A stretch of 64,000 nucleotides of DNA, from positions 434,001-498,000 of the forward strand of contig WRIS01000001.1 of assembly GCA_009782615.1 (NCBI GenBank). The letters run 5' to 3'. The stretch is from Eggerthellaceae bacterium (GTDB lineage Bacteria; Actinomycetota; Coriobacteriia; Coriobacteriales; Eggerthellaceae). Shown one piece after another: positions 34,016-53,029 of the stretch; within the stretch, counting starts at the first letter, position 1; each line of letters opens with the position of its first letter. The notes beneath the pieces were generated by a model. It searched no databases, was not told the origin of the DNA, and saw nothing but the letters and a program-made list of their open reading frames with translations. A program made the translations under genes and the position numbers.

Positions 34016-34801
34016 CTAACTATCCTGATTACCCTGCGAAGGCGGAATGGCTTGTTGGGCATCGAGTAGGGGGAGCCCCAAAAGTTCTTTGGTCTTTCGA
34101 TAGCCAAAAAGTCCTTCTAAAATATAGACATCTTCAGGGTTGGTGATTTTAATGTTGCCGACATTGCCGCGAACAAGATTAACTTCCCTTCCCAAAACAT
34201 CAAAAAGGGTGCACGCATCAACGATATCCGTGAAATCAGGGTTGGTCTTGCGCACTTCTTCGTAGGCGCTCATCACATCATCAATAAAGAAAGTTTGGGG
34301 AGCCTGAACAGAAAAGGTGTGTCTTCTTAGGGGTACTTCTTCTGTGTTGATTCCGTCTTCGCTCACAATGATGGTTTCTTGGCAGGGCGTAGACGTTATG
34401 GCGTTGCCTTTTTCCAAGGCAGTTTCAACTAAGTTGGTAATAAGGATGTCGGTGACAAAGGGGCGCACACCATCATGAATAAGCACGAGAGTATCTTCAG
34501 TGTTATGCAGGCGTGCTTCTGTCAGCGCATTATAGATGGAGTGCTGGGCGGTATTCCCCCCAGGAACAATTGCTTTTACCTTTTCAATCTTGTACTGCTC
34601 AAGAAGGCGTTGGGTGTGTTCTATCCATTCTTCTTTGCACGCCAGATAGATTTCGTCGATTAAGGGGTGTTTTTCGAAGCAATCAAGCGTCCAGACCAAA
34701 ATGGGCTTATTGCTTACTTCAATAAATTGTTTGGGGAGCGAAGATTCCCCCATCCTGCTTCCTACCCCACCCGCAAAAATGATTCCCACATTTTTTGTCA
34801 T
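34016..34801 (-). CDS. IspD/TarI-family cytidylyltransferase
   Basis: CTP-dependent nucleotidyltransferase of 261 residues. The signature IIFAGGVGSRMGESSLPKQF with two extra residues before LPKQF, the HDGVRPFVTDILI segment, and QTFFIDDVMSAYEEVR match the group that includes IspD (isoprenoid pathway) and TarI/Bcs1 (CDP-ribitol). The loop form and the setting beside CDP-alditol-type transferases favour an activated polyol for the glycan, but IspD function is not excluded. The ATG at 34801 has GAGG six bases upstream. It is probably co-transcribed with the epimerase 34 nt downstream. Confidence 0.82.
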   Translation of the reverse strand: MTKNVGIIFAGGVGSRMGESSLPKQFIEVSNKPILVWTLDCFEKHPLIDEIYLACKEEWIEHTQRLLEQYKIEKVKAIVPGGNTAQHSIYNALTEARLHNTEDTLVLIHDGVRPFVTDILITNLVETALEKGNAITSTPCQETIIVSEDGINTEEVPLRRHTFSVQAPQTFFIDDVMSAYEEVRKTNPDFTDIVDACTLFDVLGREVNLVRGNVGNIKITNPEDVYILEGLFGYRKTKELLGLPLLDAQQAIPPSQGNQDS

Positions 34802-34956
34802 TGCATTCCTCATTTGCGCTGAACTTGTCTGCAAACCAGTTTTTACCAAACCAGCTGTTCTTTTCTACTAGAATATGTCCGATTATTATAGAGAACCGTT
34901 TGCCCGTTCTTAGGGAAATTCTCAGATTCGTAGCCAAATCCCACGGAAATCCCATG

Positions 34957-38000: not shown

Positions 38001-38336
38001 AAATATTTGTTCCCTCTTGACTTCTATCATGCCCGAAAGGCGATTAAAGAAGAGTTTGTTGTCCGCAACGTCTACGACCAATTCAAACATGCGTTTGTCA
38101 ACACTGCGCTACTCCAGAGCATTGGTACCCTCAACAGCTTCAAGGGTACAGATACTCATCAAATAGTCTGGACAGCTTTGAAATCTGAGGTTTTCCAAGC
38201 GCTAGATGTTGTCCGCTTTGAAGATACTCGACAAGCTCTAGAATACTATTATCCCGAACTGCATTACGCCTACAGAGAAATGCTGCTTGTTCTTGACTTG
38301 TCTTACGAAGAATACTGTGCATACAAGGGGATTTAA
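35004..38336 (+). CDS. Triple-domain glycosyltransferase with coiled-coil N-terminus
   Basis: A 1110-residue cytoplasmic protein. Residues about 40-150 are a predicted coiled coil. Residues about 175-340 form a GT-A-like domain (RIVVSLTSCPDNLYDIHYCL, then IVIANDNVYYEQNWLEALV). Two family-2 domains follow: PLVSVIVPVYNTAEYLQQCL with CVNDGSTDASLTIL and AFLDSDDYI (about 443-650), and PTVSVIVPVYNSEPYLKACL with CVNDGSTDGSLEIL and SFLDSDDIF (about 775-1000). Both keep the DxD-type acidic pair, so both may be active, as in polymerising enzymes that add alternating sugars. The start is TTG with GGAGA upstream at rather long spacing. Its stop overlaps the next ATG by one base. Confidence 0.9.
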   Translation: MSKQSLRQRIIRVQKIKNKHHFVVFGKPVKGLSRFSAYLRSRDLTYQSQQKDKELKSLGEKLAALESELAQSKESMTEALDVHQEQLECQAQQENKKLAALSEELYLLDKGLKEQNDSAQLKALDEKIAQTKTSLTTTINANQAQFKKRVLHNGIRSINKERIASKIENFKMIGIQEEPSGTQEPRIVVSLTSCPDNLYDIHYCLYSLLNQALKPHKLILWLADEQFPNKEEDVPQKVLDLKEHGLSIAWCSDIKGYKKIIPALKKYPNDIIVIANDNVYYEQNWLEALVSAHDGRQDIICHRAYRVMFEDEKVAPMRKWIKGVQTEEASVFNFPITDAGVLYPPHSLHADVLNEELSCSIAPDVGDTWLWVMALRAKRKIRVISVEPNDKGIIESAPCYVNPEKKLGIDDSAIGPASALDKDAQIATVIEACPEIQEIFSEHKRPLVSVIVPVYNTAEYLQQCLNSAVKQTLRDIEIICVNDGSTDASLTILQSYAAVDPRIRIIDQPNKGYGHALNIGIAHATGEYIAFLDSDDYITTSAYEKLYRAARCRNVDIIKANYFRVFSGEKAPPKKKDVLTKHPDLYNKVLNPRGEKRLFYVYMSNCVGLLKRSFVEENTIVHRENPGCVNQDFGFWFQTFMYAKRVFLLKDHFYCYRQDRPGSSRNNLVTFDRAEEYDHIWNILQSQPGLVEEFSDVFWHRRYTISAHLLNLLPNNLKEKFIHVLSKDFGSAQQSGELNLSRFSDLQHKHLHMIIENPGQYYTSFFASPEEVTSYRMPTVSVIVPVYNSEPYLKACLDSILGQTFKNIEVICVNDGSTDGSLEILNNYAGDDPRITVISQKNAGAGAARNVGLKVARGTYLSFLDSDDIFYKTLLEKMLLESLATQADICVCDAHRYDNETQQTNTTKPFLKEKFLPTLRVFDSSSMQKDIFYALGGYVWNKLFNRDFINNNEIIFQEIERSNDIFFAYIALVLARHICTIKEPLILYRTNNKTSLQGTKYLFPLDFYHARKAIKEEFVVRNVYDQFKHAFVNTALLQSIGTLNSFKGTDTHQIVWTALKSEVFQALDVVRFEDTRQALEYYYPELHYAYREMLLVLDLSYEEYCAYKGI

Positions 38337-39358
38337 TGAGAAAATATGAATCTTTGTTAGCAAGAATTGAGGCATTAGAAAGCCAACTATCTGAAAGCCT
38401 AACAACGCACAAAGAACAAGCAAGCGAAATGGTGTCTCACATGCAAAATATTGAAAAGCGAATAGACGAAGTGGCAGCAGAAGTGCAGTCAATAAACTCA
38501 GGCATGAAAAAGCACGTCAAGAAACTGAATACCCAGCTCCAACTAGTTGAAAAAAAGGCACTTCGCATTCAGCAGCAGCCCTACTTATCGTATTTTGTCT
38601 TAAATATCCTCGACCACTGCAACCTTAATTGTATTGGTTGCGACCATTTTGCTCCGCTTGCCCAGGAGCGCTTTGTTGCTTTGGAAGATATCAAAAGCGA
38701 TTTACAACAAATGTCGTTACTCACAAAAGGCAAGGTAGGGCGCATTGGCATTATGGGCGGTGAGCCACTGCTTCATCCCAATTTACCTGAAATCTTACCT
38801 GTAGCACGTAAAGCCTTTCCTGAAACAATCATTCAAGTAGTAAGCAACGGGCTTTTGTTGCTGAAACAAACTGACGAATTTTGGAATATCTGCAAAAAAC
38901 ACGACATCACTATTGTGGTAACAAAATACCCCCTGAATCTCGACCATGATAAAATGCTTGAAACAGCAAATGCTTGGCAGGTGAAATTTCAATTCAAGGG
39001 TAATACTGGTACCGCTCAAAAAACATCATGTAAAGCACCCCTTGACATTGAGGGCTTACAAGATCCTAAGCAAAGTTTTTGGAATTGCTATCATGTTAAT
39101 ACCTGCCCTTTTGTTATGGAAGGTAAAATTTACCCCTGCACCATAGCTCCCAATATAGACCTCTTTAATCAAAAGTTTGGAACATCCTTGAATCTTGAAG
39201 AAGGCGACTATCTAGATATTTATCGCGTTAAGGACTACCGGGTTCTACTTGCTTTCTTAAGTACCCCGAAACCCTTTTGTCGCTACTGCAGAACAAAGGA
39301 TCGCACTTTCGGACATCCTTGGGAACGCTCAAAACAGGATGTGGGCGAATGGATCTAG
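38336..39358 (+). CDS. Radical SAM enzyme with coiled-coil N-terminus (paralogue 1)
   Basis: A 340-residue protein. Residues 1-80 are a charged coiled coil. The radical SAM core starts at LNILDHCNLNCIGCDHFAPL, whose CxxxCxxC ligates the 4Fe-4S cluster, followed by GIMGGEPLLHPNL (the GGE SAM motif). The C-terminal part has further Cys (CYHVNTCPFVMEGKIYPC, then PFCRYCRTKDR), suggesting a SPASM-like auxiliary cluster. The substrate is unknown; the coupling to a glycosyltransferase (one-base overlap) and a sugar dehydrogenase points to modification of a sugar or of the carrier-linked glycan. A paralogue follows the dehydrogenase at 40592. Confidence 0.88.
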   Translation: MRKYESLLARIEALESQLSESLTTHKEQASEMVSHMQNIEKRIDEVAAEVQSINSGMKKHVKKLNTQLQLVEKKALRIQQQPYLSYFVLNILDHCNLNCIGCDHFAPLAQERFVALEDIKSDLQQMSLLTKGKVGRIGIMGGEPLLHPNLPEILPVARKAFPETIIQVVSNGLLLLKQTDEFWNICKKHDITIVVTKYPLNLDHDKMLETANAWQVKFQFKGNTGTAQKTSCKAPLDIEGLQDPKQSFWNCYHVNTCPFVMEGKIYPCTIAPNIDLFNQKFGTSLNLEEGDYLDIYRVKDYRVLLAFLSTPKPFCRYCRTKDRTFGHPWERSKQDVGEWI

Positions 39359-39377
39359 GCGTAAGGAGCTTCGATAC

Positions 39378-40586
39378 ATGAATATTGCTGTTGTTGGCTT
39401 GGGCTATGTTGGCCTTTCGCTTGCCTGCCTCTTAAGCCAAAATAATAGAGTTCGCGCTCTTGACGTTCTTGCAAGCAAGGTGGATGCTATCAACGCGCGG
39501 TCTTCCTACCTTGCAGATAATTTTCTTGCCAGCTTTCTTGAAACAGAGCAACTTGACCTTACCGCCTCTCTTGATTTTCGGTTCGTGTTCGATGAAGCCG
39601 ATTTCATTATCTTCGCTCTTCCCACAAACTACGATGAGGGCACCAACTGCTTCGATACCTCTCTTCTTGAAACTGCCCTAGAAGCCGCCGTGGCCTATAA
39701 TCCTGCAGCTTGTATGGTTATAAAATCAACGCTGCCTATCGGGTTTACCAAAAACATTGCCGCACGATACTTGCAATCACAGTTTCTTTTTTCACCCGAA
39801 TTCCTACGCGAAGGTTATGGGCTCTATGACAATCTTTATCCGACCCGAATTGTGGTGGGAACTGCAGACAATTCCCTCGCACTCCATAAAAGAGCTGAAC
39901 AGTTTTCCTTGTTACTTGAAGATAGCGCCCGCTATTATAACACCCGCCATAAGGAAGATCATCCTTCTATTCCAATGCTTCTTATTGGCTCTTCAGAAGC
40001 TGAGGCAATCAAGCTTTTCTCAAATACCTATCTCGCACTCCGCATTTCTTTTTTTAATGAACTTGATACCTACGCCGAATCGCACGCGCTTGATGCGCGG
40101 CAGATTGTTCAAGGGGTTGGACTTGACCCCCGCATTGGCACCTATTACAACAACCCTTCATTTGGTTACGGCGGTTCCTGCTTGCCAAAAGATGTTAAAC
40201 AGCTTCTTGCAAATTATTACGGTGTTCCGCAGAATCTTATTGAAGCTATTGTTGCAGCAAATCAAACCCGCATGGATTTTATTGCTGAGAGCATAGCTGG
40301 TCGTAACCCTTCCTGTGTAGGCATCTATCGTCTCGCCGCAAAAGAAGATTCTGATAACTTGAGAAACAGCTCAAGTATTGAAATCGTGGAGCTCTTAATC
40401 AAAAAAGGAATCACCGTGCTGGTTTATGAGCCGCTTCTTTCCGAGGAAAGCGGTTTTGCTTGCGAACTAATCACCAATCTTGAAGAATTCAAAAAGCGCT
40501 GTGATCTTATCGTTTGCAATCGCACATCTCCAGAACTTGATGATGCGCGTGAAAAAGTTTATACTCGCGATTTAGGAAGGTTTTAA
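39378..40586 (+). CDS. ugd: UDP-glucose 6-dehydrogenase-family protein
   Basis: Oxidises a UDP-hexose to the UDP-uronate with two NAD. The 402-residue protein has MNIAVVGLGYVGLSLACLL (NAD loop), IKSTLPIGFTKN, SPEFLREG, KLFSNTYLALRISFFNELDTYAE and the catalytic Cys in GYGGSCLPKDVKQLL. The C-terminal domain is slightly short. The ATG at 39378 has AAGGAG nine bases upstream and gives the canonical N-terminus; the earlier frame opening lies within the upstream gene. It sits between two radical SAM genes, so the uronate may be their substrate or co-substrate. GDP-mannose or UDP-HexNAc variants cannot be excluded. Confidence 0.9.
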   Translation: MNIAVVGLGYVGLSLACLLSQNNRVRALDVLASKVDAINARSSYLADNFLASFLETEQLDLTASLDFRFVFDEADFIIFALPTNYDEGTNCFDTSLLETALEAAVAYNPAACMVIKSTLPIGFTKNIAARYLQSQFLFSPEFLREGYGLYDNLYPTRIVVGTADNSLALHKRAEQFSLLLEDSARYYNTRHKEDHPSIPMLLIGSSEAEAIKLFSNTYLALRISFFNELDTYAESHALDARQIVQGVGLDPRIGTYYNNPSFGYGGSCLPKDVKQLLANYYGVPQNLIEAIVAANQTRMDFIAESIAGRNPSCVGIYRLAAKEDSDNLRNSSSIEIVELLIKKGITVLVYEPLLSEESGFACELITNLEEFKKRCDLIVCNRTSPELDDAREKVYTRDLGRF

Positions 40587-40591
40587 GTAAC

Positions 40592-41407
40592 GTGAGCTTT
40601 CGTGCTGCTGACCCAAAACGTCCTTCTTTGTTCTACCTAGAAATGCACCTTTCTGACCGATGCAATTTGAATTGCAGGTCGTGCAGTCACTACTCGCCGC
40701 TTTTTCAAAAAAATGCTCCACACCCCAGCCTTAGGGCGTTCAAAAAGGATCTGTCTCGTTTAGCGTCCTTGTTTTCTGATGTTGGTAAAATACGGCTTAT
40801 GGGAGGAGAGCCTTTGCTCAACCCGAAGGCTCACAAGTTTCTTCCTGTTGCGCGAAAAAGCTTTCCCAATACCGATTTGCGTCTGGTAACAAATGGCTTA
40901 CTTGTGCCCACAATGAATCGAGCAACCGTAGAAAGCATTCGAAACAATGAGGTTACTGTCGATGTGTCAAACTATCCTCCAACTTCAGAAAAGAAAGATG
41001 AAATTAAAGCATTTTTTGAAGCAAACGGCATAACATATAATTTTAAAACAAATAGAGTTGTTACCACCTTTTTTAAACCATTTGCGTTGCGTCTCGATAA
41101 TGCAGATTTTTCTTATGAGTGCCCGAGTGCGGGGTTTTGTGTTAATTTGCGCAATGGGAAACTAGCAAAATGCCCTATGCTGATGCATGTAAACACGCTC
41201 AACGCCCATTTTGGTATGCATTTTCCAACCGAAGGTTTGATTGACATTTACGAGAACGAGATTACCGGTGATGAAATACTTGTCAGACTTGGAAAAAAAG
41301 TAGCGCTGTGTGAACAATGCGTAAATGTTCGAGCCCCCTGGGAAGCCTACGGTAAGTCGGTTCCGCAAATAAGCGACTGGGTGGTGGATGCGGATAGCGC
41401 ACAATAA
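40592..41407 (+). CDS. Radical SAM enzyme (paralogue 2)
   Basis: A 271-residue relative of the gene at 38336 without the coiled coil. The cluster motif is DRCNLNCRSCSHYSPLF, the SAM motif is RLMGGEPLLNPKAH, and the tail has CPSAGFCVNLRNGKLAKCPM and CEQCVNVRAPWEAYG, so extra Cys for an auxiliary cluster are kept. The start is a GTG five bases after the ugd stop, with AGGAAGG upstream. The shared CNLNCxxCxH/Y-x-(S/A)PL pattern defines a pair that probably acts on similar substrates. It converges on the sialidase-fold gene. Confidence 0.87.
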   Translation: MSFRAADPKRPSLFYLEMHLSDRCNLNCRSCSHYSPLFQKNAPHPSLRAFKKDLSRLASLFSDVGKIRLMGGEPLLNPKAHKFLPVARKSFPNTDLRLVTNGLLVPTMNRATVESIRNNEVTVDVSNYPPTSEKKDEIKAFFEANGITYNFKTNRVVTTFFKPFALRLDNADFSYECPSAGFCVNLRNGKLAKCPMLMHVNTLNAHFGMHFPTEGLIDIYENEITGDEILVRLGKKVALCEQCVNVRAPWEAYGKSVPQISDWVVDADSAQ

Positions 41408-41459: not shown

Positions 41460-42506
41460 TTATATGTCTTCACAAAGGAAGAACAGGATTTCATGGCGGT
41501 TGATTTCAATGGTGAAATAGAGTTTATTTCCCTCCACAAAACCGTCTGGGTAGCAGTATATTCCCGGAAAATCGGTGAGTACATGTTTTTCTTCCCAACT
41601 GAGCATATCGTCATGAGAAATCCAGAGCGCCAATGGATAGCGGTTCGAAAAACCCGGATTACCATTGGGAGTATGAATCAACCCGATTCGTCCATCCGGA
41701 AAAGCAAGCAACTTCGGTTTGTTGTCCGGATTAGGAATATCGGTAGGCTCGGCTTTAGTCCACGTTTTTCCACCATCGAAAGAATCGCTGCGCCACAAGC
41801 AGCCGCTTTTATCTACTCGCAAAAGCATCACCACACGACCATCTGAAAGTTCGATGAGCGTGGGTTCTGACCAAGCCCATCTGCGCCCCGTATCACCCTT
41901 AATAGGAATTTCTGGCCCAGGACATAACTCCGGAGCAAAGCCACCTGGGGCAGTCAACACTACACCGTTCTGAATGGCGCAGATGTCTGCGTCCCACACC
42001 GCTCGTTGCTTTTTGTAGTCGCTTATACCGTGGCTTGCAGTTACTAGGCGCATGTTTTCCTGTTCACTTACAGGCATGTGTTGATAAGGCAACAATTGCG
42101 TACCATCCCTCAGCTCAAGCAAACCTCGAAAAAAAGTAAAAGCAGGAAAGAAGGGTGGAATACCTGCGTTGTGCCAAGTATGACCATTATCATCACTTTC
42201 CATCACAAAGCAACCCATATTCAAGAAACGACCACTGTGCGTTTGTCCGTAAACCCGAGCAATTCCATCAACCACGTTAAATTCAGTGGCATACACCGCC
42301 TGACCAGTTTCAGGATAAATGCATGCAGATTTTGACCAAGTAAGTCCATCATCAGTGCTGCGAAAGCTGCGAATACGGTTAAGAGGGGCTGGTTCTGCCA
42401 CATCGCCCACCTGGGAAACGCACAGCAAATCGCCATTGGGCATTCGGCGCAATATCGGCTCGCAACTTAAGGTATCACGATGGATTAAGCGAATGGTAGT
42501 TTTCAT
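41460..42506 (-). CDS. Sialidase-fold (Asp-box) protein without secretion signal
   Basis: A 348-residue beta-propeller-type protein. Four Asp-box-like turns are visible: STDDGLTWSKS, SDDNGHTWHN, SFDGGKTWTK and SHDDMLSWEEK. Arg in PILRRMPNG near the N-terminus fits the first residue of a sialidase Arg triad. The family includes exo-sialidases and other propeller hydrolases or lyases. It lacks a signal peptide, so it probably works in the cytoplasm. The ATG at 42506 gives MKTTIRLIHRD; a TTG at 42515 is an alternative. It is the last gene of the CMP-ulosonate-type operon, 24 nt after the MurF-like gene, so a role in trimming or editing an ulosonate-containing intermediate is conceivable but unproven. 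Confidence 0.75.
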   Translation of the reverse strand: MKTTIRLIHRDTLSCEPILRRMPNGDLLCVSQVGDVAEPAPLNRIRSFRSTDDGLTWSKSACIYPETGQAVYATEFNVVDGIARVYGQTHSGRFLNMGCFVMESDDNGHTWHNAGIPPFFPAFTFFRGLLELRDGTQLLPYQHMPVSEQENMRLVTASHGISDYKKQRAVWDADICAIQNGVVLTAPGGFAPELCPGPEIPIKGDTGRRWAWSEPTLIELSDGRVVMLLRVDKSGCLWRSDSFDGGKTWTKAEPTDIPNPDNKPKLLAFPDGRIGLIHTPNGNPGFSNRYPLALWISHDDMLSWEEKHVLTDFPGIYCYPDGFVEGNKLYFTIEINRHEILFFLCEDI

Positions 42507-42530
42507 GACAATCAAGTCTTGCTTTTTTGT

Positions 42531-44018
42531 TTACAACCCCTGATTGCTTTCAGGGATTGTTGTACTCTTCTCACCTAATTCCAGCAGCACAGGAGTAATA
42601 CGATCAAATTTAGCGCGCAGCGATGCTTTCGTTAACACAACGTCGTCTTTTTGTATTAGCGAGGGTAGGGCGTTACATAAGTCACTAAGATCATAATAGG
42701 AGTTGAAATCATCATCAACATTAACATCGAAAGGTGCGAATTTGCATTTATTTTGTTGATTTTTCTTCTCGGCTCCAAGGTTTATGCCTCTCCGCACTTC
42801 TTCTTGATATTTTCCTATATAGATAACTAAATCAATATTTTTTTGAACAATATATTCCCCAATTTCTTCATGATATTGGGCTTCATTATCACCAAGATGA
42901 TGCATGGTTCCAAAAATAAAGACTTTCCTCTGTTTGCATTCTGCTAATACGTCTAAAGCGGCCTTGGTCGATGAAGGGCTTGAGTTATAGCAATCCTCAA
43001 AAACGGTTAGAAAATCAGAATTATATACTTTTGACCTAAAGCGCGATGCTTCAAAAAAACTTATTCCCGCTTTAATTTCTTCAGGAGTCAACCCAAACTC
43101 AATTCCTATCGCAGTAGCAATTAAAGCAGCTTGGACAAGATGCTTTCCTGGTACAGGAATATAAATGTCAGGTATCTGTATTTGCTTATAAGAAATATCA
43201 CAGGTGGTGCCTTCTAGTCCTGAAGAGCGAATGTTGCTTACATGGTTTCGCACAGACGACCCCCCCCCCAGCCATTCTATTGTTCGCGGTTTTTTTATTG
43301 TTGCTTTTTGTAACATGTCATCATGCGCCCATAAAAAAGCGATACCCGTTGGACGCATGTATTCCAGCATCTTTGATTTTATTGCAAATATATTTTCCAA
43401 CGTTTTATATTTGCTAAGATGAGGTTCGCCGATATTGGTAAGTGCAACAATGTCGGGCTCAACCCCCCGGTCTCTCCTATGAGTACGTTCCCCTTCAATG
43501 GCAGTTTCCAAAACAAGAACGTCATAGCCACCTTTATACATTTCATAGAATGCTAAGTGGTAAAATGCCGAAACATTATGAAAATCCTCGGTTTTTACTA
43601 TTTTGAATTGCTGAGATAGCACCGAATTAACCATGTCTTTTGTGCTTGTTTTCCCAACGCTTCCCCCTATAGTTATAATGGGCTCTTTTATGTGAGGGCG
43701 CAGTGCGGAAAAAAACTCTATCTCTGCTTCCCATAATCTTTCTACCGCTATATAGGGTGGATCAACTTCATCTATCAGAGATTTTTCAACAACACAGCAA
43801 AGACACTTCGCGTTTTGCGCAGTTTTATATCTCCTTATCAACACTTCTTTCTTTTGGTTTTCTTTGAATTTTCTTGAATTGGGAAAATAGAAATCCCCTT
43901 CGCTTATTTCCACTTGACTATTCTTTATTTCAAATACTTCTTTCGAAAGAATCTCCTCATCACCAACAAATTCTCCATCAATGAATTCTGCTATTTGCCT
44001 TACCGTTAAGTATCTCAT
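42531..44018 (-). CDS. MurF-like Mur ligase in the glycan operon
   Basis: ATP-dependent amide ligase of 495 residues with the three Mur domains: an N-terminal MurF-type domain (YLTVRQIAEFIDGEFVGDEE), a central ATPase with GGSVGKTSTKDMVNSVL (about 118-134) and TNIGEPHLSKYKTLENIF, and a C-terminal domain with FEDCYNSSPSSTKAALDVL. By family it joins an amino acid or dipeptide to a carboxyl group. Here, beside KdsB/KdsC-like genes, the acceptor might be the ulosonate carboxylate; that is inference. A ten-base G tract inside the ATPase domain (codons for Leu-Gly-Gly-Gly) is a likely phase-variation switch. The ATG at 44018 has AGGA six bases upstream. Confidence 0.88.
   Translation of the reverse strand: MRYLTVRQIAEFIDGEFVGDEEILSKEVFEIKNSQVEISEGDFYFPNSRKFKENQKKEVLIRRYKTAQNAKCLCCVVEKSLIDEVDPPYIAVERLWEAEIEFFSALRPHIKEPIITIGGSVGKTSTKDMVNSVLSQQFKIVKTEDFHNVSAFYHLAFYEMYKGGYDVLVLETAIEGERTHRRDRGVEPDIVALTNIGEPHLSKYKTLENIFAIKSKMLEYMRPTGIAFLWAHDDMLQKATIKKPRTIEWLGGGSSVRNHVSNIRSSGLEGTTCDISYKQIQIPDIYIPVPGKHLVQAALIATAIGIEFGLTPEEIKAGISFFEASRFRSKVYNSDFLTVFEDCYNSSPSSTKAALDVLAECKQRKVFIFGTMHHLGDNEAQYHEEIGEYIVQKNIDLVIYIGKYQEEVRRGINLGAEKKNQQNKCKFAPFDVNVDDDFNSYYDLSDLCNALPSLIQKDDVVLTKASLRAKFDRITPVLLELGEKSTTIPESNQGL
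43260..43269. repeat. Ten-base C/G homopolymer inside the MurF-like gene
   Basis: C10 on the + strand, G10 in the coding strand, encoding the end of Leu and three Gly in EWLGGGSS. Gain or loss of one base shifts the frame in mid-protein. Confidence 0.9.
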
Positions 44019-44030
44019 CACGAATCCTGT

Positions 44031-44546
44031 CTATATTTTTTCTAGAGTCTCGCATCCGAATAAAGCCAGCATATCATCATATTGATTTTGTTCATACAAA
44101 AGATGCTCACAGATATCCCGCACTGCTCCATGACCTGCCTTTATCGGTGAAATATAGTCGCAAATCCTGCGAATTTCTCTTGTTGCATCAGCAGGACACG
44201 CTTTGAAAGCGCACATTTGCATTGCCTCATAATCGTTCAGGTCGTCTCCAATATAGGCAAAGTTTGCACCCGTAAGCCCGTGCTCCAAGAAATATTGTTC
44301 CAACACTTCTATTTTGTTATTAACTCCCTGAAAAACGACGGAAATAGCAAGATCCTTAGCACGAATGGCAGTCAATTCCGAATTTCTTCCCGTAAGAATC
44401 ATGGTAGTGAAACCCAGCTTTGGTAACACCCGAACAAGCAAACCGTCCTTAGCTTGAAACTGTTTTGATTCAACTCCGTTGCTGGAGATAGTTATACCCC
44501 CATCGGTCAAGGTTCCATCCACATCAAAAATAATATGGTCAATCAT
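44031..44546 (-). CDS. KdsC-like HAD phosphatase
   Basis: A 171-residue C0-type HAD phosphatase. IIFDVDGTLTDGGITIS holds the nucleophile and acid Asp, ILTGRNSELTAIRAKDL the conserved Ser/Thr and Arg region, YIGDDLNDYEAMQMC the metal site, and GHGAVRDICEHLL the C-terminal segment diagnostic of KdsC, which removes phosphate from Kdo-8-phosphate (and related ulosonate phosphates). The ATG follows the aldolase stop by one base. The pairing with a KdsB-like gene strongly suggests an ulosonate pathway; the exact sugar may differ from Kdo. Confidence 0.92.
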   Translation of the reverse strand: MIDHIIFDVDGTLTDGGITISSNGVESKQFQAKDGLLVRVLPKLGFTTMILTGRNSELTAIRAKDLAISVVFQGVNNKIEVLEQYFLEHGLTGANFAYIGDDLNDYEAMQMCAFKACPADATREIRRICDYISPIKAGHGAVRDICEHLLYEQNQYDDMLALFGCETLEKI

Positions 44547-44547
44547 A

Positions 44548-46101
44548 CTAATTTACCTCATATACCGAAGGGGTAATAAATTTCAAGGAAACCGCTTTGC
44601 CGATTTCTGAAAGCTGTTTGCTCATAATGCTATTGAGAGCTGTTACCGTTTCTGTGGCAAGATAGTTATCAAGGCTATCGCTGTAATGATCCTCGCCCCC
44701 CGTAAAGCCGTCATACCCAGCAAGAGCAGCGTGCTTTACTCCAAGCCTCATCAAGAAACGGAGAGCCATTGCACCACTCGAATCAATGTTTTCCTGGAGA
44801 AGGGAATCGTAGTTAATCACATAAACGCCCTTCATGCCTTTGCTTGTTATGTTTGAAGTAACCACAATAGGAAAACCTTCTTGTGCTAGGTGTTCAAAAC
44901 GCTTTCGATTACTCACAAAAACCAAATCGGGGGTAATGCCTTCCGGAATAAAATTGATTGAGATTACAAAAGGGTTCGTGTTTTCAATATGCTCAGTAAT
45001 GCAACCTATCTGCCTAGCAACGCTATTGCCCGGTGCTAATATGAGCACGTCTCTTTCGTCAAGTTTGGCAGCCAGTTCTTTAACGGCTTTTTCGTCCTCA
45101 ACGTTATGGCTCATTTCAGCGTGATAGATGTCTTCAATGTTTTGCTTCTTGAATAAATGCTTGTCAGCCTTAGGAAGACTGTCCAGCAATTCAAAAATCT
45201 TCGTCATTCCAATTGACTGTTTTTCAATAAGATAGGAAGCATAATTGGGGTGAACACCCATAATTGCTGATAAATAATATGGTTCTGAAAAACCCCAGGT
45301 ATCGTACTTATAGATGGGCAGGATAATATCATCAATAAGTTCAAGTAAAGGAACTAGGTTGTACCGTTTTTCAATATTGCTGTTGATAAAATGAGTTATG
45401 AGCTCAGTATTCAGGTTGCCAGCACCGCGCCCCATACCAAAAGCCGATGAATCAATAATGATGTGCCTGTCGGTATGTAGTTCGAGCAATATCATAGCGT
45501 TTGCGAAAGATAACTGTAGATTATTGTGGGAATGAAAACCAAGGCATATATCTTTTTCAAGATTGTTCTCCACCAAGAAGAACATACGCAAAAGATCGTT
45601 TTTATACATTGAGCCTAAGGTGTCAACAAGGTAAAAAGCAAAAGGCTTCAAAGTGTTTACTTCTTTAATAAGAGCAAGCAATTCTTCATCGGTGTAGGAT
45701 ACGGTTCCTATAGGTTGAATAAATACTTTATAGCCCTTTTCCATGAGGTTGAGCGCTGCTTGTTTGGTTTTCTCCCATTCTGAATTATGAAAAGAGAGGC
45801 GAATACCGTCAATAAAGTCTGGCTGACGGGGGACAATTTCTTCAACGCTTATTCCCCCATATTCAATCATTGCCAAAAACATTTTTCCCTCACGGTCTTT
45901 AGGAAGTTTTATTTGCTCTACACCTCCGTAGAGCGAAAGATTGGGATCTTTCTTTCCTGTGCGCAGAAACCCACATTCAAGCATCTCTATATTTGTGTCG
46001 CAAAGTTTTTCTTGTATCGTTTGAATACGATTCACACCAAAGCGAAAATCGTTTACATATCCGCCATCGCGAAGGGTACAATCTAGAACGCTAATCTTCA
46101 T
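44548..46101 (-). CDS. DRE-TIM aldolase fused to a Rossmann-like glycosyltransferase-type domain
   Basis: A 517-residue fusion. Residues 1-300 are an HMGL-like barrel: LDCTLRDGGYVNDF with the Arg-Asp pair at the metal and catalytic site, and GFHSHNNLQLSFANA with the HxH metal ligands. The His that follows RDG in 4-hydroxy-2-oxovalerate aldolases is Tyr here. Residues about 340-517 start VLILAPGNSVARQI and contain DLVFVSNRKRF, VVTSN and FLMRLGVKHAALAGYDGF, reminiscent of DUF115/GT42-type folds. By family the barrel makes or breaks a C-C bond next to a keto acid. Between KdsB-like and KdsC-like genes (four-base overlap with the former) it could form the ulosonate skeleton in place of KdsA/NeuB. 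The fusion is inferred from one continuous frame. Confidence 0.85.
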   Translation of the reverse strand: MKISVLDCTLRDGGYVNDFRFGVNRIQTIQEKLCDTNIEMLECGFLRTGKKDPNLSLYGGVEQIKLPKDREGKMFLAMIEYGGISVEEIVPRQPDFIDGIRLSFHNSEWEKTKQAALNLMEKGYKVFIQPIGTVSYTDEELLALIKEVNTLKPFAFYLVDTLGSMYKNDLLRMFFLVENNLEKDICLGFHSHNNLQLSFANAMILLELHTDRHIIIDSSAFGMGRGAGNLNTELITHFINSNIEKRYNLVPLLELIDDIILPIYKYDTWGFSEPYYLSAIMGVHPNYASYLIEKQSIGMTKIFELLDSLPKADKHLFKKQNIEDIYHAEMSHNVEDEKAVKELAAKLDERDVLILAPGNSVARQIGCITEHIENTNPFVISINFIPEGITPDLVFVSNRKRFEHLAQEGFPIVVTSNITSKGMKGVYVINYDSLLQENIDSSGAMALRFLMRLGVKHAALAGYDGFTGGEDHYSDSLDNYLATETVTALNSIMSKQLSEIGKAVSLKFITPSVYEVN

Positions 46102-46847
46102 AGTTTTATCTCTCCTTTTGCTATACGATCTTCGATTATTGTTCGAACGAACTCTAGGTCTTTCTGCGTATCGACCGAAATAGACGTTGAATCAACTTCG
46201 GTAAATCTTATAGGGATCCCGTTTTCCACAAAACGAAGATGGTCAATGTCTTCTACTGTTTCAAGCTCGCCTCTTGGGGTGTCAACAAAGAAATCTAGCG
46301 CAGCTTTATTGAAACATTCGATACCAACGTATTTCATGTAGCGGAAAGCTAAGCTTCCTTGCGGGTAGGGCACTGGAGTTCTCGACAAATACACACAGGT
46401 TCCTTCATTCGTCAATGCAAGTTTTATGTTTCCGTTGTCAATTGTTTCCGCAGGATTGGTGAGGACTCGGGTTGCTCCTTGAAAATATGGCAAATCGACA
46501 ACGGCTTCCGAGGGAATCAGACGGCGAATTGCACGCGGATCAATAAGTGGCTCGTCGCCGTTTACGCAAATATAAAAATCAGCATCAACCATGTCGGAAA
46601 CTTCATGTATTCTGCTTATATGTTCTGGATGGTTTTTCTTTGTCATTATACATTTGATACCAAAAGCTTCGATCTCGTCCGCCACGCACTCATCGTCGAC
46701 AGCAACAAACACCTCAGTCAGTTCTGCAACCTCCTTTACGCGGTTATATACCCACCAAACCATTGGTTTCCCGCAAATATTAGCAAGAGGCTTCCCAGGA
46801 AGTCGTGTACTCGCATAACGCGCAGGAATGACCCCTACTATTTTCAT
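46098..46847 (-). CDS. KdsB-like CMP-ulosonate synthetase
   Basis: Cytidylyltransferase of 249 residues that activates a 3-deoxy-ulosonate with CTP. The N-terminal VIPARYASTRLPGKPLANICGKPM is the KdsB signature. It is followed by VFVAVDDECVADEIEAFG, YICVNGDEPLIDPRAI (NxDEPxI, metal site) and YMKYVGIECFNKAALDFF. The length equals the family. It overlaps the transferase gene upstream and the aldolase gene downstream by four bases each (ATGA), so all three are translationally coupled. Kdo itself is typical of Gram-negatives and plants; in this setting a Kdo-like sugar of a capsule is more likely than a lipid A core. Confidence 0.93.
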   Translation of the reverse strand: MKIVGVIPARYASTRLPGKPLANICGKPMVWWVYNRVKEVAELTEVFVAVDDECVADEIEAFGIKCIMTKKNHPEHISRIHEVSDMVDADFYICVNGDEPLIDPRAIRRLIPSEAVVDLPYFQGATRVLTNPAETIDNGNIKLALTNEGTCVYLSRTPVPYPQGSLAFRYMKYVGIECFNKAALDFFVDTPRGELETVEDIDHLRFVENGIPIRFTEVDSTSISVDTQKDLEFVRTIIEDRIAKGEIKL

Positions 46848-49800
46848 AACTTCTTCTCTTTCTTATTCATTATCTCTTTTAAGTACTGCACGGCTTCCTC
46901 CACAGTTCGTCCATAGCGCAAAGGGCGATTGCTTTGATTATCAAACAGGTAGTATTTATTCATTTGGGCAGTATGTCTAACAAAGGCTTCTCTTTGCTCT
47001 TCGGTAAACCCCTGTTCAAGAGCCGCCTTTACAGTCGGCTCTATGGTCTCCAAAACAAATGCCTCATACGAACAACCCTTATCTTTCAGCGTTGTATATC
47101 CAAGCGAAAGTGCAGGCTTTCCCCTAATGAGTGCCGTATAGGCAAGACTAGTGGTTAGGACTATTGTTAGATCTGCATAGTCTACCAATTTGTTTATGTC
47201 GCCCTCGTCAATACAAATTACATTTTTAGGATACTTTTTTGCAGCGACACCCGACTTCACCACATGGGGGTGCGGTTTGTATATAAGGTTCCAATTGTTC
47301 TGTTTGGCAAGTTTTGCCAGATACTCTATTGTTTGATCTGAGGAATCAAATATAGGAGAATAGAACTTTTGCGAGTGCTCGCTTCGTGGATAAACACCGT
47401 TTTCAACATCAAAGTCACCTGCAAAAAAAATAGTCGGCTTCCTCTGATCAATTTGTTTTAAAGCACTAAAGAAACCCGCTTCTTGCTTTTGCGCATATCG
47501 GTTTATCCCAGATTCATGGCAATATCCTATTACCTCTTTTGCATTTTCTCTTTCCCCCCATGTGATTGGCAATGTTAGAAATTCTTTGGGATTACAAGCA
47601 ACCTTGCTCTCCCCAAAAAGCCCTTCTTCATCAATAGCAAGCGTACCGGGAAGCTCACCCGACTCCATGTATACTGTCGGAATATTCATACTGTGGGCAA
47701 TTGCGTCAATGATAGCGCTCTTCCCTTGATTACGATTCCATACTACTACCAACTGCGGAGCAAAGCGCTGCAGCGCCTCCTCATAATAGCGTACCACCTC
47801 ACAAGCAAAGAATTCTGGATACCCGCTTCCCATTTTCGGATAAGATTGACGAAAGCGCTCCAAAACGACTTTACCAATTTTTTCGTCATTGCGCGCTTGT
47901 TCAAGAAACTCACCAGTATAGCTTAAAGCTGAGTTTTTTGGAAATTGACCCCTTTCAAGAGGGGTAGGAATCGAGTATACAGCGAAAGAAAGCTTTTTTT
48001 GTGGACGGCGGGCAGTAAGATACACCCAGTTGTAATCTGGCATTGCCTCGCTTATGTCACTTACAGCTTTATACGCAGCCGGATGCGTTCCCTCCACTAA
48101 CAGTATATTATTACTACGAACAATCAGGGTGTCTTCATGAAGTTTTTGCAAGCCTTCGTTTACCTGGGCACGAATATCATCCAATACCCGATTGCTCTCT
48201 GATTTTGCCACGGAATAATACAGCTTACGACTTTGCCTGTACGCATATCGAGCCTGCTCATAAATGTGTAATTTTTCAGTAAGAATACGAACTCTTCTCT
48301 TAAATCGCCTCTTAAAAGAAAGTCCATCATTTTTTTGAAGCGCTTGTTCTTGGATACTTTCAAAAGAGGCTTTTGGAAAGTGTTTTTTGTACCACACCAT
48401 ATAAAGACTTTTTCTGTCTTGCGAAAACCCAGCATCAGAGTAGCTAAAGTTGCTAAATAATCGCGCATCTGTTTTATTGGGAGCATCCAACAAATCTGCA
48501 ATGCTGTTATACAAACTAAAGCCATCAAATTCTAAATATGGTAAATACCCCCCAAGTAAATCAGCAAATAATTGGGTAAATTCAATCACGCTACCCTGCA
48601 TCAAAAAAAGTGGCTCAGCTTCTTCAGCAGCACTTTCTTCAGAAATGGTGCCGCTTAAGTCATCCTGCTTTGTTTGTTTGATGCGCGGCAAAGGTTCACA
48701 AACCATGTCTTCGAAAAACAAGTCTCGCACCGAATAAGTTGCGCCTGTTCTTCCTTTAATCAAAAAAGACTTTGAAGCAGATGGACTTTCAGAAATAAAG
48801 CATTTCGATGTTACACTTTCAAATTCCTCGTTATCCAACTCTGCCGTTTGCACAGAAAACATATGATAATACGTGCTTGCTAACCCATACTGTTCGTTTA
48901 AGAACTTACTCACGCTTCCCTTGTTCTCAACATCGAAAATGCCCAGATTTTTTGAAGGATCTATATTACTTTGAATGTTTTCGCTACAAAGCTCTATTCT
49001 CTTTTTTAGGTTGGCTTTGAAACACGGCTCTAGCTCATAGAGAAAATACGCAATGCTATCCAGGCTTCCAACCGGTGTATTTGAATTGAAATATCCCTTA
49101 CGAGCAAATATATTTAAAGCCTCGTTAATTTCTTCTTCGTTGTTCGCAAACAAGCGTTCAATTATAAAATCTGCTAGGCCCGTATTTTCATTAAAAGGGT
49201 TGTCTTTCAAAAAATCAAACAGACCTGTTTCTTCCTGTATGTAGTGCGCTATCTGAGTAGAGTGCGATAAGGCGAAAGAGGCAATTTCAGGCTCTGTAAA
49301 TTCGAGCTTTAGAATTTTATACATTTTTTGCAGCAAGTATCCTCTACGATCAAGAAAAGTAAACTGCCCTATATTGCCTTGTTTAATTTCCTGCGCCATC
49401 CAAAGCAGAAAAGAAATCAAAAATGGTGCAAGTAAATAACCAAGCAATTCAGGTTCACCGTTATAACGAGAAGCCTTCAAAAAGGGGCGATAGGGGTCAT
49501 CGAACATGACATTCGCTACAAGGCCAATAAAAAATTGATTGTTGAGAGAACCTCTTTTTCCGTAATACTTTTTTAGCTCTGGAAATCGAATGAACGTGTT
49601 TAACGCGCTTCGTATGTATACCGCCTGAATACCCGCTTCTTGTGCTTTTTCTACATCAAGAAGAGAATCGTCGCCAATGTGTACAATTTCTTGAGCATCA
49701 ATGCTGCGTTCAAAAAAATCACTGATGAGACAACCATACAAGTTTCCAGTTTTTTTCATTCGACCATATTCACATGAAAGATATAAGCGCGAATAACCTG

Positions 49801-50269
49801 TATATCCATTTTTCACAAGGGCTTTTTCTATAAAATCAGCTGGTAAGTTTGTGTCGGCGGTAATAACAATTTCTTTTCCTGCCTTTTTTGCTTCGTTGTA
49901 GAAAAATTGAACTGTCTTGCGTGGGTATAGCAAGGAAAGTTCTACTTCCATTTCAGTCTGCATCAGGCGTTCAGCTTCGTCTTTTGGACAATTGAAGAAT
50001 TTCTTATAGGTAGCATAGACTTCAGAAAGGGTGCACTCCTCGGTTGGGTAGCCCAGACCAAAGCGCGTGTTGCTTTCTGCCAAACGTCGCTTATCCTGAA
50101 AATTAGCAACTCCCGCAATCTTTCCCACTAGCTGCCGGATATTATTTGGATGGGTAACGGGGCGCAGTAGCAAGGTTTCGAATATATCGAAACTAACTAC
50201 CTTCACGCTATCAGCTAAGATTAGCTGTAGTTTTTCTTGCATTTCACTAGATAAATCTTCAATATCCAT
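46844..50269 (-). CDS. HAD domain fused to KpsC/KpsS-like ulosonosyltransferase
   Basis: A 1141-residue cytoplasmic protein. Residues about 20-235 are a HAD-type domain (VVSFDIFETLLLRP, then IVITADTNLPADFIEKAL, then IVHIGDDSLLDVEKAQEAGI). The middle (about 280-480) is a region I do not recognise, followed by a low-conservation linker. Residues about 715-1135 resemble the capsule Kdo-transferase family: QLVVVWNRNQGKSAIIDAIAHSMNIPTVYMESGELPGTLAIDEEG, FAGDFDVENG, LIYKPHPHVV (His-Pro motif) and LTTSLAYTALIRGKPALSLGY. KpsC/KpsS use CMP-Kdo, so the link to the overlapping KdsB-like gene is functionally sensible. The first gene of its operon; the start ATG is family-unsupported but is the first in frame. 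Confidence 0.82.
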   Translation of the reverse strand: MDIEDLSSEMQEKLQLILADSVKVVSFDIFETLLLRPVTHPNNIRQLVGKIAGVANFQDKRRLAESNTRFGLGYPTEECTLSEVYATYKKFFNCPKDEAERLMQTEMEVELSLLYPRKTVQFFYNEAKKAGKEIVITADTNLPADFIEKALVKNGYTGYSRLYLSCEYGRMKKTGNLYGCLISDFFERSIDAQEIVHIGDDSLLDVEKAQEAGIQAVYIRSALNTFIRFPELKKYYGKRGSLNNQFFIGLVANVMFDDPYRPFLKASRYNGEPELLGYLLAPFLISFLLWMAQEIKQGNIGQFTFLDRRGYLLQKMYKILKLEFTEPEIASFALSHSTQIAHYIQEETGLFDFLKDNPFNENTGLADFIIERLFANNEEEINEALNIFARKGYFNSNTPVGSLDSIAYFLYELEPCFKANLKKRIELCSENIQSNIDPSKNLGIFDVENKGSVSKFLNEQYGLASTYYHMFSVQTAELDNEEFESVTSKCFISESPSASKSFLIKGRTGATYSVRDLFFEDMVCEPLPRIKQTKQDDLSGTISEESAAEEAEPLFLMQGSVIEFTQLFADLLGGYLPYLEFDGFSLYNSIADLLDAPNKTDARLFSNFSYSDAGFSQDRKSLYMVWYKKHFPKASFESIQEQALQKNDGLSFKRRFKRRVRILTEKLHIYEQARYAYRQSRKLYYSVAKSESNRVLDDIRAQVNEGLQKLHEDTLIVRSNNILLVEGTHPAAYKAVSDISEAMPDYNWVYLTARRPQKKLSFAVYSIPTPLERGQFPKNSALSYTGEFLEQARNDEKIGKVVLERFRQSYPKMGSGYPEFFACEVVRYYEEALQRFAPQLVVVWNRNQGKSAIIDAIAHSMNIPTVYMESGELPGTLAIDEEGLFGESKVACNPKEFLTLPITWGERENAKEVIGYCHESGINRYAQKQEAGFFSALKQIDQRKPTIFFAGDFDVENGVYPRSEHSQKFYSPIFDSSDQTIEYLAKLAKQNNWNLIYKPHPHVVKSGVAAKKYPKNVICIDEGDINKLVDYADLTIVLTTSLAYTALIRGKPALSLGYTTLKDKGCSYEAFVLETIEPTVKAALEQGFTEEQREAFVRHTAQMNKYYLFDNQSNRPLRYGRTVEEAVQYLKEIMNKKEKKL

Positions 50270-50472: not shown

Positions 50473-52248
50473 CTATTTATTTTCAACCTTGTACGCTGGT
50501 TTTGCTGCCGCTGCAAGACCGCAATATGTTTCGTAATAGGCTATTGCAGCTTCAATAGGACCGTCATAGACCATTTCTCCTTGGTCTAGGACAATGCCCC
50601 TAGTACAAAACTCTTTTGCTACTCCCGTGGCGTGAGTCACAAAGAGCACAGTAGTATCTTGATCCATCATAATTTCTCGAATACGCTTGACGCACTTTTG
50701 TTTGAAGCGTTTATCGCCCACGGAAAGCGCTTCGTCAACCACAAAGATTTCCGGGTTGATAGAAACAGCGAAGGCAAAGCCAAGACGTGATTTCATGCCA
50801 CTTGAATAGGTACGAATGGGCTGATCGATATAAACGCCCAGTTCGGCGAATTCGATAATTCCCGGTTCAAGTTCTTTAATTTCTTCCCGACTCAAACCAA
50901 GCGCTTGCCCGCGCAGGCTAATGTTTTCCCTGCCCGTTAACTGTGAATCAAAGCCAGCATTGAGCTCAAGGAGCGCGCTTACCTTGCCCTTCACGGTGGC
51001 TTTGCCTGCCGTAGGGAACGAGACGCCAGTGATAATTTTGAGTGCGGTTGATTTTCCAGCACCATTTTGCCCCAAAAACGCAACCGCTTCGCCCTTATTT
51101 ATCTGGAAAGAAAGGCCGTCGTTGGCATTGACCGAACCGAAATAGGTATCATCCTTCTTCCACCCAAACAGACCGACAAACTGAGAACGCTCGTCTTTAT
51201 ACAAGTGATAGGTTTTGGTAACGTTTTCAAATTCGATGATAGGATTGTCTGAAAATTCTTTGGGAGATGCTTTTTGGATCTTCTGGAACGAAGCATCTTC
51301 TTGAGTCGTTTCTTGAGCCTTCTTTACCGTGGCTGATTTTTGTAGAGGTAGCTTTGGTAGTGTCGGTTGTTGGTGTGCAGGCTTTTTTGGTGCAGCTGGT
51401 TGTTGTTGGTGGGCAGGTTTTTTTGTTGTGGGCGGCTGCTGATGAGGCGGTTCTTTGATGGTTGGCAACTGCGAAAGCGAGTGCTTGGGTTGAGACGCTT
51501 GCTGCGACCGTTTTTCTGTAGGTGTTTGCTGATGAGAGGGCCTCTTTGTTGAGCTTGGCTGCTGGTGAGGCGGTTGCTTAGTGCTGGGCAACTGCGAAAG
51601 AGAGCGCTTCTTTTCTGCAGGTGGTTGCTGACGAGAAGGCTGCGCTGCGAGCGGTGGTTGCTGCTGGAAGGGCCGTCTTGCTGCAGGCTTTTGTTCGGAA
51701 CCGCTTGCCCTTTCCCCTACAGGTGACTGCTGTTGAAAGGGTCGCCTTGCTGCAGGTTTTTGCGATGGTTGTTCTATTGCTGGCAGTCCTTGGAGCGACC
51801 TTGTTGTGGGCGATTGTTGGGGTGGCCTTGGTGCGCTTCGCTGCAGCACCCTCGATACAGTTGGTGGTTGTTGCTGCCGCTGTGGCGACCTTGCGGGTGA
51901 CTGTTGCTGCGGGAACCTTGGTGGTTGTTGCTGTTGTTGGCGTTGTGGAGGCTGTGGTTGCCGTTGTGGTTGTTGTGGCTTTCTTGGTATAGACACCTGT
52001 CGCTGTGATTGCCTTGCTGCAGGCAACTGCTGTGGTCTTGCAGGTTGCTGTTGCCTCATAGGCTGTTGCTGTCCGGACACAGGAGGTCGTTGTTGTGGCT
52101 GTTGTTGCAGCGGTCTTCCCGACTGCTGTGGTTGGCGCTGCGAGGGTTGAGGCTGTTGGCGATATAGAGGGTTTAGTGGCTTATAGCTTCCCGAAGGTGA
52201 AGGATTCTCACGGCGCCCGCGGTTTGTCTTGTTGTTATCAAAGGGCAT
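50473..52248 (-). CDS. TagH/Wzt-type ABC transporter ATPase with 330-residue Gln/Pro-rich N-terminus
   Basis: ATPase of a polysaccharide or teichoic acid exporter. The C-terminal 255 residues are the ABC domain: FLGQNGAGKSTALKII (Walker A, about 390), LTGRENISLRGQALGLS (Q-loop area), YSSGMKSRLGFAFAVS (signature, about 481) and IFVVDEALSVGD (Walker B, about 503). The group keeps SGM instead of SGG, as in TagH/KpsT. There is no Wzt-type carbohydrate-binding domain. Instead the N-terminal 330 residues are a Gln/Pro/Arg/Ser/Lys repeat region (QQPPRFPQQQ, KKPAHQQP-type units) with no fold visible. AGGAGG lies seven bases before the ATG, so the extension is probably translated. It overlaps the permease gene by 11 bases. 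Confidence 0.93.
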   Translation of the reverse strand: MPFDNNKTNRGRRENPSPSGSYKPLNPLYRQQPQPSQRQPQQSGRPLQQQPQQRPPVSGQQQPMRQQQPARPQQLPAARQSQRQVSIPRKPQQPQRQPQPPQRQQQQQPPRFPQQQSPARSPQRQQQPPTVSRVLQRSAPRPPQQSPTTRSLQGLPAIEQPSQKPAARRPFQQQSPVGERASGSEQKPAARRPFQQQPPLAAQPSRQQPPAEKKRSLSQLPSTKQPPHQQPSSTKRPSHQQTPTEKRSQQASQPKHSLSQLPTIKEPPHQQPPTTKKPAHQQQPAAPKKPAHQQPTLPKLPLQKSATVKKAQETTQEDASFQKIQKASPKEFSDNPIIEFENVTKTYHLYKDERSQFVGLFGWKKDDTYFGSVNANDGLSFQINKGEAVAFLGQNGAGKSTALKIITGVSFPTAGKATVKGKVSALLELNAGFDSQLTGRENISLRGQALGLSREEIKELEPGIIEFAELGVYIDQPIRTYSSGMKSRLGFAFAVSINPEIFVVDEALSVGDKRFKQKCVKRIREIMMDQDTTVLFVTHATGVAKEFCTRGIVLDQGEMVYDGPIEAAIAYYETYCGLAAAAKPAYKVENK

Positions 52249-53029
52249 CGGGCACCTCCTTCGCTAGGTGCCGGTACAAAATATACATGACCATCACGGT
52301 TACCAGAAAGACAAGTATGAAGCATGTCAGTGCGCGAAAATCTTGCCACACCCACACCTTGTAATACAGTGCATCCCTAAACGCAGTAACAAAGAAGGTG
52401 ATAGGATTGAACAAAAGGACGTTCTTAACCCATTGAATTTCAATGTTCGCTACGTTAAAAATAACCCCCGACATCCAAAACAAAGGCGTTACCATCGCTC
52501 TTACTAAGTTGGCAAAGTCTTTACTCAAGGCGGTTAGCAAAGAGGTCATCAGCGAATACATATAAAAGAAAACGAACATAACCACAATGATAAAAGGTAT
52601 CTGAAGCAAATATAAATCAAGCGGCATGCCCATAAAAAAGTAGATGGCGAAAAGCACTACGTTCATCCCCAAATGAACAACCAGCGTTGAAATATTGAAA
52701 ATCATAGGGATGCCGCTTAACGGGAATTTCATTTTGTTGACGAGATACGAATAGCGACGAAAGGTGCTTGAGCCTGAACTGAGCATCTCGCGCATAAAAA
52801 ACCAGGGAATCAGACCGAAAAGTAGCCACAAGAAGAAGGGCGGATCCATGTCCCTACCAGCACGAAGCCCGATATCTAACGCAAACCAAAAAATGAAGAT
52901 AAAGATTAAGTGCCTACCAAACAGCCAAAACCAGCTTAAGACGGCACCACGTGACTTTTTCACAAGGTCAAATAAGGCAAGCCGAACAATCTGCTTGCGC
53001 CACAGCCAAATGTCTTTAAGGATAGATAT
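52238..53029 (-). CDS. TagG-type ABC-2 permease with apparent ATA start
   Basis: Membrane partner of the ATPase, exporting the lipid-linked glycan. The protein has about six membrane segments (FIFIFWFALDIG, FFLWLLFGLIPWFFM, LGMNVVLFAIYFF, IIVVMFVFFYMYSLM, FWMSGVIFNV, ILVFLVTVMVMYIL). The first standard start in frame is GTG at 52963, but that cuts off a conserved N-terminal amphipathic region. Reading on, ISILKDIWLWRKQIVRLALF precedes it, and an ATA at 53029 lies six bases after AGGGAG. I therefore place the start there (263 residues). A lost ATG or a sequencing error are alternatives; see findings. Without the extension the protein would be 241 residues. Confidence 0.85.
   Translation of the reverse strand: MSILKDIWLWRKQIVRLALFDLVKKSRGAVLSWFWLFGRHLIFIFIFWFALDIGLRAGRDMDPPFFLWLLFGLIPWFFMREMLSSGSSTFRRYSYLVNKMKFPLSGIPMIFNISTLVVHLGMNVVLFAIYFFMGMPLDLYLLQIPFIIVVMFVFFYMYSLMTSLLTALSKDFANLVRAMVTPLFWMSGVIFNVANIEIQWVKNVLLFNPITFFVTAFRDALYYKVWVWQDFRALTCFILVFLVTVMVMYILYRHLAKEVPDAL

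Follow-up and report, generated by a model that had tools for sequence, protein, structure and literature searches.

An aldolase-based variant of CMP-ulosonate biosynthesis predicted in a polysaccharide operon of an Eggerthellaceae bacterium

To our knowledge, the described CMP-ulosonate pathways, which lead to Kdo and to sialic, legionaminic and pseudaminic acids, begin with a phosphoenolpyruvate (PEP)-dependent synthase, and genome surveys for ulosonates look for KdsA or NeuB. The operon analysed here resembles the Kdo capsule pathway in grouping together a phosphatase, a CMP-synthetase, a probable KpsC-like transferase and an ABC exporter, and departs from it in that no KdsA was found and a pyruvate-type aldolase fusion is present instead, the presumed sugar pocket of the KdsB-type synthetase is altered, the exporter is TagH-like and MurF-like and BNR genes are present as accessories. 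With the sialic and other nonulosonic acid pathways it shares activation by CMP, and among its relatives are NeuA-type synthetases and transferases of the GT29, GT52 or POLYST families; here, however, the carbon skeleton is apparently made by an aldolase, and NeuB was detected neither in the genome nor in the retrieved bacterial stretches, save one from Phocaeicola vulgatus (locus L044).

The window, the whole 64-kb stretch of DNA that was analysed, contains in its list of open reading frames (ORFs) six minus-strand ORFs in one tight run at 41460-50269, with products of 1141, 249, 517, 171, 496 and 351 aa in transcription order. The first three genes are joined by 4-nt overlaps at 46844-46847 and 46098-46101, and the later ones are separated by gaps of 1, 9 and 15 nt, which bears out the six-gene operon described in an earlier note on this DNA. 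The gene families named there likewise agree with the Pfam, HMM and PDB profile matches, whereas the exporter genes, said to follow the operon, instead lie upstream of it in transcription, across a 203-nt gap at 50473-52963. Scans of the operon region for promoters and terminators stayed at chance level. The features are as follows:

52238-52963, minus strand: ABC-2 polysaccharide exporter permease (ABC2_membrane)
50473-52248, minus strand: ABC-2 polysaccharide exporter ATPase (TagH-like NF010065)
46844-50269, minus strand: HAD-like and KpsC-like (GT107/GT99-type) protein of 1141 aa, probable CMP-ulosonate-using transferase (Pfam, profile search)
46098-46847, minus strand: CMP-ulosonate synthetase of KdsB type, presumed sugar pocket altered (CTP_transf_3, NF003952, KpsU 1gq9)
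44548-46101, minus strand: aldolase fusion, DRE-TIM domain and MptE/DUF115-like domain (HMGL-like, 3dxi, AF2/Foldseek)
44031-44546, minus strand: KdsC-type HAD phosphatase (TIGR01670)
42531-44021, minus strand: MurF-like ATP-dependent ligase (Mur_ligase_M and _C)
41460-42515, minus strand: BNR/sialidase-fold protein (BNR_2)

Reading function from sequence and gene context, we consider it probable that the core of this operon makes a CMP-ulosonate whose carbon skeleton is built by a metal-dependent DRE-TIM aldolase and not by the PEP-dependent KdsA or NeuB; we infer the chemistry, the order of the steps and the identity of the sugar. The aldolase domain would condense pyruvate with a phosphorylated aldose or aldehyde to yield a 4-hydroxy-2-oxo (3-deoxy-2-ulosonic) acid phosphate, from which the KdsC-type phosphatase would take off the phosphate. 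The KdsB-type enzyme would then form the CMP-ulosonate, the HAD-KpsC-like protein would move the ulosonate residue onto a glycan, and the ABC exporter would carry the glycan out. Directly observed are the conserved adjacency of the genes, the fusion of the enzymes of the first and third steps, and neighbours of the sialyltransferase families.

Residues ~1-300 of the aldolase fusion form a DRE-TIM metal-dependent aldolase domain akin to HMGL and 4-hydroxy-2-oxovalerate aldolases (HMGL-like Pfam match, 2.3e-15). Its nearest solved relative is PDB 3dxi (1e-18), the putative aldolase BVU_2661 of Phocaeicola (Bacteroides) vulgatus, and DmpG-type 4-hydroxy-2-oxovalerate aldolases come next. The AF2 model has a pLDDT of 91.6, and Foldseek returned 3dxi (2.5e-15) and DmpG 1nvm (4e-14) as its best matches. 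Residues R11, D12, Y15, H190, H192 and Y287 are unchanged across 77 homologues. The modeled TIM-barrel fold and the predicted metal site, with its R-D and HxH motifs, place the protein in the DRE-TIM metal-dependent aldolase superfamily. It shares the N-terminal domain fold, the metal ligands and the R-D motif with DmpG/BphI aldolases and 3dxi, but differs from DmpG/BphI in scoring 71.3 bits with the DmpG equivalog model TIGR03217, below the cut-off of 286, in the lack of an adjoining DmpG-type acylating aldehyde dehydrogenase among the operon genes, and in being fused to an MptE-like domain or, on contigs classified as viral, to one of CMP-synthetase type. Throughout the family, Tyr15 occupies what we take to be the position of the DmpG catalytic His21, a point against the proposed aldolase route.

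Residues ~330-517 form a second conserved domain, a distant relative of MptE/DUF115 proteins. The C-terminal domain of the L008 homologue matches the MptE-like family in Pfam with an E of 0.0099, and hhalign paired the aldolase C-terminal domain with MptE-like proteins at 71% and E 3.8e-5; a PDB profile search with this domain returned nothing significant. The family assignment made in the earlier note stands, and the partner domain that it had left unnamed is distantly MptE/DUF115-like. Among the DUF115-type proteins are the Maf transferases, with CMP-nonulosonates as substrates, so this domain may by analogy act near the CMP-sugar. One Maf is described as accepting Neu5Ac and Kdo (PMC11339370).

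We scanned one genome per species with a three-sequence aldolase alignment and kept the best 80 loci of a larger set, chosen by the aldolase fusion alone and nearly all containing full-length fusions; an earlier scan with a single aldolase protein as query gave no matches. A CMP-synthetase lies directly upstream of the aldolase in 70 of these 80 loci (44 KdsB-type and 26 NeuA-type), elsewhere in five of the remaining ten, and escaped detection by our query in the other five. Hosts include Clostridia, Bacillaceae, Paenibacillus, Bacteroidales, Treponema, an Elusimicrobiota MAG and a Thermoplasmata MAG. The slot just downstream of the aldolase is usually taken by a phosphatase: 39 loci encode an HAD_2 phosphatase there, the window, L011 and L012 a KdsC-type enzyme, and L044 (by Pfam) and L051 (by sequence clustering) an inositol-phosphatase-family protein. 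That unrelated phosphatase families stand in for one another points to dephosphorylation as a constant step of the predicted pathway. A PfkB kinase occupies the same slot in six loci, assigned by Pfam in L076 and by clustering in L072, L079, L085, L087 and L091. Among 95 scanned neighbours in bacterial loci we counted six POLYST, three GT52 and eight MptE-like proteins.

The closest relative among the best 80 loci, L011 (62-63% identity), alone repeats the exporter, HAD-KpsC, CMP-synthetase, aldolase and KdsC genes in order, with a NeuA-type synthetase. MurF-like and BNR genes were found beside the aldolase in no other locus searched (E 1e-4), so we rejected the idea of a unique six-gene system, and the earlier proposal that the six-gene composition forms a conserved unit fails. 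What recurs, judging from the sequences compared, is a core that is not unique to the window, the aldolase/CMP-synthetase pair, present in many bacteria and in virus-classified contigs. The operon is best described as a probable aldolase-based variant of CMP-ulosonate biosynthesis; its standing as a new six-gene system is not supported. The suggestion that the aldolase takes the place of KdsA or NeuB beside the CMP-synthetase fares better, as the pairing is kept across phyla and fused on viral contigs.

Some loci depart from the full-length fusions. In L009 (7023-9661) and L010 (9820-12605), the aldolase is shorter, lacking the C-terminal domain, and the next gene encodes a thiamine-diphosphate enzyme, recognized through TPP_enzyme_N by Pfam in L009 and by eye in L010. 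In L092 and L093, a short aldolase precedes a gene sized like the thiamine-diphosphate enzyme genes of L009 and L010. The combination of short aldolase and thiamine-diphosphate enzyme is possibly a second subtype of the pathway.

Aldolase and CMP-synthetase are encoded in one ORF on 24 of 37 IMG/VR contigs, whose viral label is the IMG/VR classification and several of which may be copies of one virus. Pfam confirmed the order aldolase-synthetase in L094, L097 and L115 and the order synthetase-aldolase in L109 and L120, and L111 and L113 resemble L109. In L095, L103, L107 and L115, the pair, fused or adjacent, has genes of the GT29 sialyltransferase family, above the Pfam cut-off, in its vicinity; GT29 and GT107 families are described as transferases of ulosonic acids from CMP donors (PMC13171606). 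PHROGs contains no family for the viral fusions checked. Gene context and these fusions together lend good support to the view that the aldolase replaces KdsA or NeuB in feeding CMP activation. A comparable logic is documented in phosphonate biosynthesis, in which PEP mutase is fused to nucleotidyltransferases and cytidylyltransferase activity has been demonstrated (PMC6697681). Both cases fuse a carbon-bond-forming enzyme to a nucleotidyltransferase for surface tailoring, but the superfamilies differ on both sides.

The transferase assignment relies on the C-terminal half of the 1141-aa protein. Capsule_synth aligns with residues 974-1068 at 18.0 bits, under the Pfam cut-off of 20, and with the L011 homologue at 23.9 bits, and a C-terminal profile built from two sequences only retrieved KpsC (PDB 6mgd, E 3.5e-8). 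E869, D954 and H1000 are identical in L011, and visual comparison pairs them with the Glu/Asp/His set of KpsC (PMC10148158); the QXXXD motif lacks its Gln. The N-terminal HAD-like half also occurs in ~20 further ORFs of the loci. AF2 modeling from the two-sequence alignment gave a pLDDT of 34, and we make no fold claim. From these matches, the protein is a probable CMP-ulosonate-using transferase. The phosphatase scores 126.3 bits with TIGR01670, above the cut-off of 106.95, and the exporter ATPase 229.7 bits with the TagH-like model NF010065, below its cut-off of 538. At its N terminus, this ATPase is extended by a Gln- and Pro-rich stretch of ~330 residues.

The earlier note had reported no KdsA or NeuB homologue. 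In the 93%-complete genome of the bacterium, we found no PF03102 (NeuB) match and a single PF00793 match, a 267-aa ORF whose QIGTRNM motif, read by eye, makes it look like a DAHP synthase; within the reach of these two models, the report holds. KdsA was judged in this genome by PF00793 only, and the TIGR01362 equivalog was applied to the genomes of relatives. Neither synthase was detected in 31 of 50 host genomes, many of them MAGs of unknown completeness, and these include the host of L011 and isolates of Gottfriedia, Neobacillus and Paenibacillus. Nineteen hosts have at least one of the two: NeuB is strong in 17 of the 50 (threshold >190 bits, weaker matches of 23-42 bits being taken as DAHP synthases and similar) and KdsA is over the cut-off in four. 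In P. vulgatus ATCC 8482, a NeuB and NeuA-type pair and a KdsB-type and aldolase pair share one locus (L044:5465-10572), which suggests that this organism makes two CMP-ulosonates.

These counts bear on the strongest rival explanation, that the aldolase acts on another acceptor or as a lyase and that the CMP-synthetase is fed by NeuB or KdsA products or by salvage. The 19 hosts with a PEP-dependent synthase and the NeuB and NeuA-type genes of P. vulgatus speak for it, as does the freedom with which closely similar aldolases swap synthetase types. On the aldolase tree, a quick one with SH-aLRT support only, the synthetase class changes 30 times, compared with a shuffled mean of 40.1, and none of 200 shuffles was as low. 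The aldolases of L043 and L054 are 91% identical, yet have KdsB-type and NeuA-type partners, respectively, and those of L067 and L081 are 84% identical, yet sit beside two KdsB-type pocket classes. Synthetase class is thus weakly clustered on the tree, and either the aldolase leaves the choice of aldehyde open or it does not directly supply the synthetase. DmpG-type enzymes accept several aldehydes. This loose tie is what chiefly limits our confidence in the aldolase route. The 31 hosts with neither synthase, the aldolase/CMP-synthetase fusions in both orders and the separation of the P. vulgatus NeuB-NeuA pair from the KdsB-type-aldolase pair argue against a non-feeding aldolase, an explanation that we regard as unlikely.

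A second rival is a Kdo (or Kdn) pathway that opens with a non-orthologous enzyme: Kdo-8-P would come from the aldolase, and CMP-Kdo from the KdsB-like enzyme. A KpsC-like transferase is present, and the KdsC-type phosphatase and KdsB subfamily models are both above cut-off. The window synthetase matches CTP_transf_3 (1.8e-37) and KpsU 1gq9 (E 3e-50) and reaches 213.5 bits with the KdsB subfamily model NF003952 (cut-off 193), but stays below the KdsB equivalogs TIGR00466 (132.7 vs 155.2) and NF003948 (155.8 vs 281). The C-terminal domain of KdsB binds Kdo (PMC3149649). The window enzyme has N-Y-D-H where solved KdsB has Q-H-E-Q, a set kept in five solved KdsB sequences and replaced by N-Y-D-H, N-F-D-E, N-H-N-E or Q-Q-E-I types in all 52 aligned KdsB-type ORFs (including the window's own, L002, and the L003/L008 duplicate, so that 50 are independent of the window). 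In the KdsB/KpsU complexes, the Q-H-E-Q positions presumably contact Kdo. The residues presumed to bind CTP and Mg are invariant in the same alignment. Because the presumed Kdo-pocket residues differ in every KdsB-type partner, the Kdo analogy drawn earlier should not be taken literally, a strict Kdo pathway is rejected, and the ulosonate is probably not Kdo. With NeuA-type synthetases in the closest relatives as a further point against it, we judge a Kdo or Kdn pathway very unlikely.

A CMP-activated phosphonate, as in PntC/PEP-mutase clusters, is suggested by the like fusion logic of PEP mutase and nucleotidyltransferases (PMC6697681) but is rejected as scarcely credible, with no PEP mutase (PF13714) match in the genome that reaches the family cut-off, a synthetase of KdsB/NeuA-type rather than of the LicC/Fom1 types of that study, and neighbouring transferases of sialyl/Kdo-type.

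We found no published description of an aldolase and CMP-synthetase pathway in a literature search that was incomplete and weak on subscription papers. If the aldolase-based reading is true, many hosts scored negative would carry surface ulosonic acids, among them gut Firmicutes, Bacillaceae and perhaps hosts modified by phages. The fused aldolase-CMP-synthetase proteins make the aldolase route directly testable in a single tube.

The last two genes of the operon appear to be local accessories. The MurF-like ligase carries Mur_ligase_M and _C and scores 204.7 bits with TIGR01143, under the cut-off of 288.6; it is a paralogue of the housekeeping MurF, which is encoded separately on contig C3 (404 bits), and the operon protein was rejected as a candidate for that role. 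Across the searched genomes, it most closely matches MurF-like proteins from the aldolase-bearing Firmicutes (E about 1e-46 to 1e-48) and from a few members of its own order (to 3e-44), ahead of those from its own family, a pattern compatible with horizontal acquisition. The BNR protein matches BNR_2 (6.9e-30), shows no obvious signal peptide by eye and aligns with sialidases such as 1eur only through weak, short repeat-level matches. Because neither gene accompanies the aldolase in the other searched loci, the earlier proposal of an aminoacylated or peptide-bearing ulosonate is unsupported. Any link between the MurF-like ligase and the ulosonate is speculative, and Mur-ligase chemistry makes it a fair guess that the enzyme amidates a carboxylate. 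The most far-reaching version, a third widespread, PEP-synthase-independent route to undescribed CMP-ulosonic acids, common to bacteria and their viruses, in which the MurF-like ligase of this organism also joins an amino acid or peptide to the carboxylate by an amide bond, strikes us as rather unlikely.

Several further genes of the window were recognized by eye. In the same polysaccharide region as the operon, a UDP-sugar-dehydrogenase-like gene (39339-40586) would offer an alternative source of a carboxylate for the MurF-like ligase and is flanked by two radical-SAM-like genes (38336-39358 and 40592-41407). An IspD/TarI-like cytidylyltransferase gene followed by an epimerase/dehydrogenase-like gene (32848-34849) suggests a supply of CDP-alditol. 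At 59851-62067, the window encodes a 738-aa protein with apparent leucine-rich repeats and a CapA-like domain.
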